From: Phycicoccus sp. Root101
GTDB lineage: Bacteria > Actinomycetota > Actinomycetes > Actinomycetales > Dermatophilaceae
DNA: 64,000 nt
NCBI RefSeq assembly: GCF_001426245.1
Contig: NZ_LMCM01000006.1
Location: forward strand, 222,865 to 286,864
Direction: 5' to 3'
Part shown: one piece after another, positions 10,560 through 13,964 of the stretch
How the letters are laid out: the number at the start of each line of letters is the position of its first letter
How positions within the stretch are numbered: position 1 is the stretch's first letter
The notes under the pieces: model-generated
The model's database searches: none
Told to the model about the DNA's origin: nothing
What the model saw: only the letters and a program-made list of their open reading frames with translations
Program-made: the position numbers and the translations under genes

Positions 10560-12095
10560 TCAGGCGCGCAGGGACCGCACCGTGTCGACGGTGTCGGCCT
10601 GTTCGGCGGTCTTGTCGTCGCGGTAGCGGATGACGCGGGCGAACCGCAGCGCCATGCCTCCGGGGTAGCGCGAGGACGTCTGGATGCCGTCGAACGCGAT
10701 CTCGACCACCTGCTCGGGACGGACGTGCACGACGTGTCCCTTGCGGTGCGTCTCGAGCTCGAGGAACCGCGCCGTCTGCCAGGTGAGGATCTCGTCGGTC
10801 ATCCCCTTGAACGTCTTGCCCAGCATGACGAATCCATCGGTGTCGGGGTCACGGGCACCGAGGTGGATGTTGGAGAGCCAGCCCTCGCGCCGGCCGCTGC
10901 CCCACTCGACGGCCAGGACCACGAGGTCGAGGGTGTGCCGTGGCTTCACCTTCACCCACCCGGCACCTCGGCGCCCGGCGGCATACGGCGCCGACGGTGA
11001 CTTGACCACCACGCCCTCGTGGCCGTCGGTGACGAGGCGGTGGAAGAACTCGGCAGCCTGAGTCGGGGACGGCGCCAGGGTGCGTGGCACCTGCCACTGC
11101 CCGGGCACGAGGTCGGCGAGGCGGGCGAACCGCTCGGTGGCCGGCAGGTCGAGCAGGTCCTCGCCGTCCACGTGGAGCAGGTCGAAGAAGTAGGGGGTGA
11201 CGGGGACGGTCGCCCTCAGCTCGTCGACCCCGGTGCTGCTCATGGTGCGCGAGGCCGTCTCCTGGAACGGGCGTGGTCGACCGTCCTCGGTCAGCGCGAT
11301 CGCCTCACCGTCGATGACCAGCCGCTGGGCCGGCAGGGCCAGCACCGCCTCCACCACCTCGGGCAGTCGGTCGGTGATGTCGTCCAGGGAGCGGGTGAAG
11401 AGCCTGACCTCGTCGCCGTCGCGATGGGCCTGGAGGCGGATGCCGTCGAGCTTGCCGTCGACGAAGACCCCGGCCCCGTCGTCAGGGGCGACCTGCTCCC
11501 AGGCGGCGTCCACGTCGGGAGCGGAGGCGGCCAGCATCGGCCGCACGGGGCGCCCGACCTCGAGGCCGATCTCCGCCAGCGCGGTGCTGCCGCCGGCCAG
11601 CGCGGCAGCCGCCACCGGGCCGGTGTGGCCGGCGAGCATCACGGCCCGCCGGACCTCCGTCTCGGGGACCTCGGACGCCGCGGCGATGGCGGCGAGCATC
11701 ACGCCGTCGAGGGCGCCCTGGCGGACCTGCCCGGTCACCAGCGCGCGCAGGTAGACCTGCTCGTCCTCGGTGAGCCGCTCGAACAGCTCGACGACCGCGG
11801 CGGCCCGCGAGGCCCCGCTGCCGCTGCCGGCGATCGCCCCGATCGAGGTGAGGGCGGCGTCGACCTCGGCCACCGTGACCGACGGCTCCGGGGCCGGGAC
11901 GGGCAGGGTGGACAGCCCGCGCCAGCTCACGCCGATGCGTCGCTGGGGGAGGACGCCGGACAGGTAGGCGGCGACCGTGGCCGCGTCGCCCGGGCCGGCC
12001 GCCCGCAGGGCGTCGGCCACCGCGGCCGTCTTGGCCAGCCTGGAACGGGTCGCGGAGGCCGCGTGGGAGGCGGCGACGACATCGGCGAGGAGCAC
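10560..12095 (-). CDS. ligB: ATP-dependent DNA ligase (LigB-like)
   Basis: A 511-residue ligase with an N-terminal DNA-binding region (about 1-190), an adenylylation domain with nucleophile Lys215 in [10 protein letters not shown], the ERxxID-type motif [11 protein letters not shown], motif V as VVKSP and GWVKVKP, and a C-terminal OB domain ending near [13 protein letters not shown]. Length and order match mycobacterial LigB, a non-essential ligase acting beside NAD-dependent LigA. GTG 12095 is leaderless (TAGGTT). It is convergent with the BCP gene. Confidence 0.92.
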
Positions 12096-12131: not shown

Positions 12132-13250
12132 TCAGCCGGCGAGCACGTCCGCGAGGTCGACCGAGTCGAACCCGTGGGCCTCCGCAACGGGGGCGTACGT
12201 CACGTGGCCGTCGTGGGTGTTGAGCCCGAGGGCGAGTGGACGGTTCGCCGACAGCGCGGCCTGCCACCCCTGGTTGGCGAGCTGCACGGCATACGGGAGG
12301 GTCACGTTGGTGAGGGCGTAGGTGCTGGTGTGCGGCACCGCGCCGGGCATGTTGGCGACGCAGTAGAAGACCGAGTTGTGCACCGCGTAGGTGGGGTCGG
12401 CGTGGGTCGTCGGTCGGGAGTCCTCGAAGCAGCCGCCCTGGTCGATGGAGATGTCGACGAGCACCGAGCCGGGCTTCATCCGGGAGACCTGCTCGTTGGT
12501 GACGAGCTTGGGCGCCTTGGCGCCGGGGACGAGGACCGCACCGATGACGAGGTCGGCGTCGGCGATCGCGCGCTCCACCTCGTAGGCGTTGGAGGCGACG
12601 GTCTGGCAGTGGCCCTGGTAGATGGCGTCGGCGTGCCGCAGCTTGCTGATGTCGCGGTCCAGGAGCAGCACCTCGGCCTGCATGCCGAGGGCGATCGCGG
12701 CAGCGTTCATGCCGGAGACTCCGGCACCGATGACGACCACCTTCGCGGCGTACACCCCGCTCACACCGCCCATGAGGACGCCACGACCACCCTGCGCGCG
12801 CATCAGCGTCTGTGCGCCCACCTGCGGCGCGAGGCGACCCGCGACCTCGGACATGGGGGCCAGGAGGGGCAGTGAGCGGTCGGGCAGCTCGACGGTCTCG
12901 TAGGCGATGCCGGTGACCTTGCGCTTGACCAGCTCCTCCGTGAGGGCCCGGTCCGCGGCGAGGTGCAGGTAGGTGAAGAGGGTCTGGCCCTCGCGCATCC
13001 GGTGGTACTCCGGCTCGATCGGCTCCTTGACCTTGAGGATAAGGTCCCCGGTGCCCCACACGTCGTCGGCGGTGTCGAGGATCTTCGCGCCGGCTGCGAC
13101 GTAGTCCTCGTCGAGGATCGAGGAGCCGACTCCGGCGTCCTTCTCGACGTACACCTCGTGGCCCTGGACGACGAGCTCGTGCACCCCCGACGGCGTGATG
13201 GCGACCCGGTACTCGTTGTTCTTGACCTCGCGGGGGATCCCGACCTTCAT
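12132..13250 (-). CDS. ald: Alanine dehydrogenase
   Basis: A 372-residue NAD-dependent enzyme interconverting L-alanine and pyruvate plus ammonia. It opens with [23 protein letters not shown], carries the substrate-site segment [11 protein letters not shown], and has a Rossmann nucleotide-binding [10 protein letters not shown] near residue 175. The start is ATG 13250, preceded by GAGGAG; the extra 21 residues of the longer open frame are Arg-rich and not family-like. Length equals that of characterised Ald enzymes. It ends 36 bases from the ligase start. Confidence 0.95.
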
Positions 13251-13344
13251 GTGACGCTCCTCCATGGTTCGGCGTGGTCCTCGAACAATGGCGGAGTTGC
13301 GGCGCCCTGCCAACCTCCGTCGGCAGGTCCGTGCTCGCGACGGC

Positions 13345-13530
13345 TCAGGCGGCCAGCCGCTCGGAGTGACCGAGGGCGTCGACGAGGGCCTGTCGCCACG
13401 AGACCACCTCGTGGCCGGTGCGGCAGGAGGCGCCGCCGCACGAACACATCCAGACCCAGCTACCGGTCGTCGCGCGGAACACCATCGGGTGGTGGTGGGC
13501 GACGTTCCTGCGGTGCGAGCGGACGGTCAT
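13345..13530 (-). CDS. 61-residue Cys-rich mini-protein, copy A
   Basis: From ATG 13530 this encodes 61 residues with the core WVWMCSCGGASCRT followed by WRQALVDALGHSERLA. Three cysteines (29, 31, 36) and a conserved His55 could form a metal site or redox centre, but this is inference. It is the same length as the next gene upstream and identical at about 32 of 61 positions without gaps. An AGGAA lies upstream. Function unknown. The longer open frame extends beyond the similarity and is not needed. Confidence 0.7.
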   Translation of the reverse strand: MTVRSHRRNVAHHHPMVFRATTGSWVWMCSCGGASCRTGHEVVSWRQALVDALGHSERLAA

Positions 13531-13642
13531 GGCAGGTTCCTGGGTGGGAGGGGTGGACGGTGTGGTTCCAGTGATGAGGAGGCGTCGGACGCGTTCCAGA
13601 TACACGGGCCGGCCGGGTGGGGGTCCCCGACACGGTGGTGGC

Positions 13643-13828
13643 TCAGGGAGCGACTGCGGAGGAGTGGTTGAGCGCACCGATCAGGGCGACCCTCCAGGGC
13701 GTTGCCTCGCGGGTGGTGCGGCACGAGGCGCCGCCACAGGAGCACGCCCAGACCCAGCCACCCTGGCTGGAGCGCTGGACGCGGGGGTGGTGGAGGGCTG
13801 AGGACCGGTGGGCCGTGCGGGTGTTCAC
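13643..13828 (-). CDS. 61-residue Cys-rich mini-protein, copy B
   Basis: Paralogue of the neighbouring 61-residue protein, with core WVWACSCGGASCRT and tail WRVALIGALNHSSAVA. GTG 13828 is chosen because it gives exactly 61 residues, like copy A, and has TACATT six bases upstream. Conservation of HHP, WVW, the CSCGGASC core and the WR-AL-AL-HS tail, with changes elsewhere, indicates selection after tandem duplication. I do not recognise a named family. Confidence 0.7.
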   Translation of the reverse strand: MNTRTAHRSSALHHPRVQRSSQGGWVWACSCGGASCRTTREATPWRVALIGALNHSSAVAP

Positions 13829-13840: not shown

Positions 13841-13964
13841 GGACGCGTGCCAGCACGCCCACGCGTCGCCGCGCCGTGGGTCGGCCACCCTCGGGAGGCA
13901 TCCCACCCGAACGGACGAGGCCGGTATGGGGAGTTGTCACCACCCCGGCGTAGGGGCGGTGGGC

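Follow-up and report, generated by a model that had tools for sequence, protein, structure and literature searches.

The window analyzed here is a stretch of 64,000 nucleotides from Phycicoccus sp. Root101, and it contains two small genes, A and B, lying in tandem upstream of an alanine dehydrogenase gene. The features at the locus are the following.

10560..12095, minus strand: ATP-dependent DNA ligase (Pfam DNA_ligase_A_M), the conserved next gene
12132..13265, minus strand: ald, alanine dehydrogenase (gene call, Pfam AlaDh_PNT_N and AlaDh_PNT_C), same-strand neighbor downstream of the pair
13345..13530, minus strand: copy B, 61 aa, ATG start, called from its open reading frame and codon usage; the putative sigma-linked paralogue
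13577..13603, minus strand: ECF-type promoter motif GTATCT-N16-CTCCT, an exact match in the A-B spacer
13643..13828, minus strand: copy A, 61 aa, GTG start; the ald-linked paralogue
13907..13919, minus strand: CTCGTCCGTTCGG box upstream of copy A; the box is conserved ahead of ald-type copies

Two adjacent minus-strand open reading frames of equal length and about 52% identity had been predicted here from the sequence, and both are found at these positions, encoding 61 residues each and separated by 112 nt. The WVW-x-CSCGGASCRT stretch that the original prediction described as common to them is present in both proteins, as is the shared C-terminal tail, WR-x-AL-x-x-AL-x-HS. By BLASTP, 33 of 60 aligned residues are identical (55%, E 6e-23), and identity across all 61 columns is 52%; the corresponding values are 54% in the family alignment and 56% in the family search, where A and B match with E 8.4e-18 and copy B itself is recovered at E 2.7e-39. 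Copy A is 93% identical to the ald-upstream copy of one relative (G007) and 82% identical to that of another (G010), with omega 0.17 against both.

Extent and constraint of the family

A third copy is encoded elsewhere in the same genome (C7:362579, E 5e-16). When aligned pairs were compared at the codon level, omega fell between 0.04 and 0.39 in 19 of 20 pairs, the remaining pair being A versus B at 0.55. The third copy and the low omega of the aligned pairs argue that the resemblance of A and B is not due to chance. These codon-level values indicate that the family is real and under purifying selection, and A and B are very probably real proteins that are expressed and constrained.

A profile search of 186 Dermatophilaceae genomes, the check that had been proposed with the original prediction, gave a match at E ≤ 0.01 in 61 of them. 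Of the 61, we regard 53 as clear (E < 1e-9) and one (G206) as a partial match, with the other seven being weak and probably due to chance; positive genomes carry one to five copies. The outcome that had been named as counting against a genuine family, an absence of homologues together with neutral drift between the copies, did not occur, and homologues were instead recovered in the 53 genomes with clear matches. Samples of 396 genomes from the order and 394 from the class contained no convincing member beyond Dermatophilaceae. Three matches from these two samples (G455, G498, and G851) were rejected because their translations lack the HH and helix parts. As far as sampled, the family appears to be confined to Dermatophilaceae and to have expanded there.

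Pfam, NCBIfam, and PHROGs contain no credible match to the family, in agreement with the earlier statement that no described family could be recognized, and PADLOC has no match for A or B. A sequence search of the PDB returned one row, at E 0.41, and none when the family alignment A3 was used. No description of this 61-aa family was found in the literature searched, which was largely without subscription papers.

The member set used below comprises 74 proteins from 59 fetched regions and the window, and it does not include every match of the 186-genome search. The pattern used for collection demands H13, C29, C31, and G32, restricts the choice at H14, W25, and W27, and failed to capture two sequences: the partial match in G206 and, in G118, a divergent second copy (C50:8192). 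Because start codons were assigned by a simple rule, M1 is no evidence of conservation, and the starts chosen in two regions (L093 and L099) may be too far downstream. Because the members share descent, their counts are not independent. We note that one genome (G005) carries two near-identical family copies 15.7 kb apart (L081:1729 and L081:17392), and that the sigma factor described below was not found there.

Promoter motif, sigma factor operon, and gene neighborhoods

In the A-B spacer, 46 nt separate the end of the motif's -10 element from the ATG of B, a distance that means B itself is not leaderless. In its exact form, GTATC[AT]-N16/17-CTC[CT]T, the motif lies upstream of 22 of the 74 members but of only 1 of 873 other genes at the same loci (Fisher 4e-25). 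Tolerating one mismatch raises the counts to 26 of 74 members versus 5 of 873 controls, while shuffled upstream sequences (n = 1480) yielded no exact and four one-mismatch matches. The spacer between the two elements is 16 nt in 19 of the 26 motif-bearing members and 17 nt in the other 7. In 16 of the 26, exactly 7 nt separate the end of the -10 element from the start codon, which suggests a leaderless mRNA for most members of this sigma class; in L093 and L099, an ATG lies 6 nt after the -10 element, upstream of the assigned start. The motif is absent from the remaining 48 members. Copy A has no match within 150 nt upstream at up to one mismatch, and the leaderless -10 pattern TANNNT, considered for copy A, is not enriched among members (11/74 versus 142/873 controls).

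Across whole genomes, the motif was in clear excess over a reversed-pattern control in five of nine genomes (7 versus 1, 6 versus 0, 8 versus 0, 15 versus 1, and 6 versus 0) and in slight excess in two (G122, 10 versus 6; G065, 4 versus 2), with no excess in the last two (G123, 12 versus 14; G199, 3 versus 4). One match in the source genome (C5:587805), identical in G007 and near-identical in G065, resembles a stretch of ribosomal RNA and was discounted. Other candidate targets of the motif are a 203-aa protein, proteins with an LNPQPLPP string, and a zinc-dependent phospholipase C domain protein (L183:2999-3610, L196:2829-3350, and L200:400-2820); the LNPQPLPP string is not mentioned in the literature searched.

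The genome searches led to facing motif pairs ahead of an operon that encodes a subtilase (Peptidase_S8), a sigma factor (Sigma70_r2), a small protein, and a TPR-CHAT protein, and in the source genome this pair is found at C10:117773 and C10:117886, with the sigma gene at C10:115485-116078. The small gene gave a weak match to CarboxypepD_reg in one genome only. Upstream sequence was fetched for 40 more Dermatophilaceae genomes, two of which were excluded as too short. Among the 38 that were retained, the exact motif stands at the head of the subtilase-sigma operon in 29, where it usually also faces outward; a further 3 have a variant ending in CTCTG, 4 have only a one-mismatch match on the opposite strand, and 2 have none close to the head of the operon. 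We also inspected 14 sigma genes in genomes that belong to the class but to families other than Dermatophilaceae. Allowing up to one mismatch, the motif is found no more than ∼300 nt away in 10 of these and at 1.8-2 kb, the expected start of a leading subtilase gene, in 2 (six exact and six one-mismatch matches in total); of the remaining two, one has the exact motif 782 nt away and the other lacks it. The recurrence of the motif at the operon head within Dermatophilaceae and near the sigma gene in other families indicates that it very probably serves as the promoter of the sigma factor itself, consistent with autoregulation.

Several details of these operons can be recorded here. A facing pair of sigma-type promoters lies between the subtilase-sigma operon and its divergent side in six regions (L184, L186, L189, L195, L201, and L213). 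The divergent gene beside the operon in G122 and G123 encodes a protein of 470-495 aa, and the one in G122 has no Pfam match. In one group of genomes, the sites near the sigma operon read GTATCA-N16-CTCTG, with a variant -10 element (L278, L284, L285, L289, and L290).

The sigma factor is present in 102 of the 186 Dermatophilaceae genomes and in 48 of the 53 that are clearly positive for the 61-aa family (Fisher 9e-11, with relatedness ignored). All 26 motif-bearing members sit in sigma-positive genomes, while the motif is found in none of the nine members from sigma-negative genomes (Fisher 0.015). The sigma factor is also present in 54 of 133 genomes without a clear family member, and thus the 61-aa family is not a core part of the sigma system. 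From the motif observed upstream, we infer that transcription of the class that includes B depends on this sigma factor.

By gene context, the sigma factor is ECF54-like. The published context of ECF54 has subtilase, CHAT, and carboxypeptidase-type domain genes around the sigma gene (PMC8999054, section 3.3), and the same domains surround the present sigma gene, the carboxypeptidase-regulatory type in one genome. The accessible part of that review gives no promoter and no target genes for ECF54, and none were found in the rest of the literature searched, again largely without subscription papers. The 61-aa family differs from the published genes in being a proposed target and not an operon member. 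A second system offers a comparison: according to the accessible text of PMC10028731, the TPR-CHAT protease of the CRISPR-associated Csx29/Csx30/CASP-sigma circuit cleaves an inhibitor of a sigma factor. In both systems, a TPR-CHAT protease, an ECF sigma factor, and a candidate inhibitor are encoded together, in the setting of a transcription response. Inhibitor cleavage, known there, would be hypothetical for the present operon, which by gene calls in three regions has no adjoining gene of CRISPR-effector size. The accessible part of a paper on conflict systems that combine CHAT and trypsin (PMC10907252) contains nothing on sigma factors.

Neighborhoods were read from gene calls around the 59 fetched regions. 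In each of the 11 genomes examined from the genus, an A-type copy lies upstream of ald, with one called gene intervening in three, so that ald, which had been singled out as a neighbor worth checking, is indeed conserved. Six other genomes of the genus have a second family copy just past the ligase, between DNA ligase and marR, and placement of B between A and ald was seen in the source genome only. In other lineages, copies are flanked by a Crp-like regulator and a response-regulator/kinase set or are divergent from a LysR-type gene. Another genus has two copies, the first following lexA and a gene for a LysM-like protein, the other preceding nrdR. Regions L052-L056, L076, L079, L084, L086-L090, and L107 contain copies that diverge from a Crp-like regulator and have no sigma motif.

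That gene order is conserved within each lineage, be it with ald (11/11), a divergent LysR or Crp-like gene, lexA, or nrdR, is what would be expected if each copy were a local regulator of its adjoining gene (ald, nrdR, or a LysR-, Crp-, or MarR-type gene) and the sigma motif were incidental. We consider this unlikely, as the neighbors are wholly different between lineages and yet several lineages show the sigma motif at a constant distance, and the same motif stands at the head of the sigma operon.

Conserved residues and predicted fold

In alignment A1 (21 rows), which was built from search matches with no motif filter, the invariant columns are H13, H14, V17, W25, W27, C29, C31, G32, A52, L53, and H55. 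In A5 (74 rows), H13, H14, W25, W27, C29, C31, G32, A52, and H55 are constant; the collecting pattern builds in part of this constancy, and the unfiltered A1 shows the same. The original prediction saw three close cysteines and a conserved His as a small metal or redox center. C29, C31, and H55 are constant, but the third cysteine, C36, is present in only 25 of 74 members, and a three-Cys center is not supported for a family in which only two Cys are constant and C36 is absent from most members. C19 is found instead in 28 members, no member has both, and 21 have neither. Counted as candidate Cys/His ligands, of which a zinc finger or zinc ribbon would take four, H13, H14, C29, C31, and H55 are conserved in 21/21 rows of A1 and 74/74 rows of A5. 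The constant CxC, HH, and H make a small metal site plausible.

AlphaFold models of B and A agree on a strand at 16-19, a strand at 25-28, and a helix at 45-58/60, with middling confidence (pLDDT 76 and 75), and the predicted layout of both proteins is zinc-finger-like (beta-beta-alpha). The family resembles small Cys2-His2-like zinc fingers in its two predicted strands, its CxC knuckle, and a helix that ends in His. It differs from them by its CxC spacing and by the HH ahead of the first strand, and it has no sequence match and no convincing fold match to them. No solved structure is a convincing match to the predicted fold: Foldseek searches with the models returned nothing at E ≤ 0.001 in the PDB or BFVD, and the best VIA-align hit (6q2z, Z 4.2, rmsd 3.2, 49 aligned) is too low to use.

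Three known identities were considered and rejected. An SprT-like zinc ribbon (PF17283) matched only 2 of 36 members at E up to 1, with a best E of 0.15. WhiB-like proteins have four conserved Cys, and this identity was ruled out by the two constant Cys of the family. The ZAS anti-sigma signature is H-x3-C-x2-C, and this identity was ruled out because the constant Cys pair here is C-x-C.

The same residues could also serve a metal buffer, a metallochaperone, or a redox thiol protein with no nucleic-acid function. Such a protein would account for the constant C-x-C and three constant His, for the abundance of His (median five per protein), and for a third Cys that is placed at either C36 (25/74) or C19 (28/74) but never at both. 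We doubt this reading: only two Cys are constant, the constant Trp and Ala positions and the basic charge (median +5) suggest a folded binding domain, and no recurring metal-transport or redox neighbor was noticed, save an AhpC-like gene near ald in some genomes.

Paralogue lineages and proposed wiring

In a tree of the 74 rows, copy A is nearest to the ald-linked copies of G007 and G010. Copy B is nearest by path to five copies of the same genus that carry the sigma motif and lie between ligase and marR, in a tree that has few columns and many open forks and in which no well-supported set includes B. Promoter class goes with paralogue lineage, changing 4 times on this tree versus 21.8 times in shuffles, none of 500 being as low. 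The pairing of a sigma-class copy with one from the other class recurs in two genera, at loci that are unrelated: ald-ligase in the source genus and lexA-nrdR in another. The lexA-linked copies of the latter have a similar CTCGTCCGTTCGG-like box in the opposite orientation. The two genes of the pair appear to represent long-separated paralogue lineages, each with its own type of promoter, and not a fresh duplication. This fits different roles for the tandem copies, for which the original prediction had suggested dosage or different partners.

The alternative that B is a recent tandem duplicate of A, retained by chance, would agree with its position between A and ald in a single genome and with the omega of 0.55 between the two copies. 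We regard it as very improbable, since A is 93% identical to its G007 orthologue but only 54% identical to B, and B is nearest by tree path to the post-ligase sigma-class copies and has their promoter motif. An origin as leftover phage or mobile-element genes is hardly credible: although actinophages may carry small proteins of a similar predicted shape (one BFVD row has probability 0.98, TM 0.64, and E 0.13), copy A has no match in phage records and copy B none in plasmid records, no viral contig matched, and gene order is stable across species.

The reading that we favor, and think probable, is that A and B are paralogues in an undescribed family of small zinc-finger-like proteins and that the class including B is transcribed by an autoregulated, ECF54-like sigma factor. 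The proteins are basic, with a predicted layout of HH-P-x-V, a strand, a W-x-W-x-C-x-C-G knuckle, and a helix ending in A-L-x-H, and would probably hold one metal ion through C29, C31, H55, and either H13 or H14. The sigma factor proposed to transcribe the class including B is encoded with the subtilase, the small protein, and the TPR-CHAT protease, and most genes of this class may start at or next to the transcription start, that is, be leaderless. The class including A has a different upstream box. In the tandem pair, one product would have a control of its own and the other would rise when the protease-linked sigma factor is active. As to the molecular role, a small effector that binds nucleic acid or RNA polymerase is our guess, and one that we would sooner expect to fail than to hold. 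More tentatively still, the family could be the output arm of a protease-gated response, in which a TPR-CHAT/subtilase sensor frees the ECF54-like sigma factor and the zinc-finger genes, often leaderless, retune transcription or translation, with copy A as the basal form.

In the part of the literature that was searched, ECF54-type sigma factors seem to have no described targets. The motif supplies a testable consensus and candidate targets for such a sigma factor, and the small protein family could serve as a compact readout gene. Should the proposed wiring prove correct, it would connect a bacterial caspase-like protease system with a set of zinc-finger-like effectors.

We also observed that the box at 13907-13919, when read as CTCRNCCGTTCGG, has 8 sites in the source genome versus 1 for the reversed control, and that the corresponding counts in four relatives are 9 versus 0, 9 versus 1, 3 versus 1, and 7 versus 1. 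Some of the CTCRNCCGTTCGG sites are close to flgB-like and Flp-pilin-like genes.
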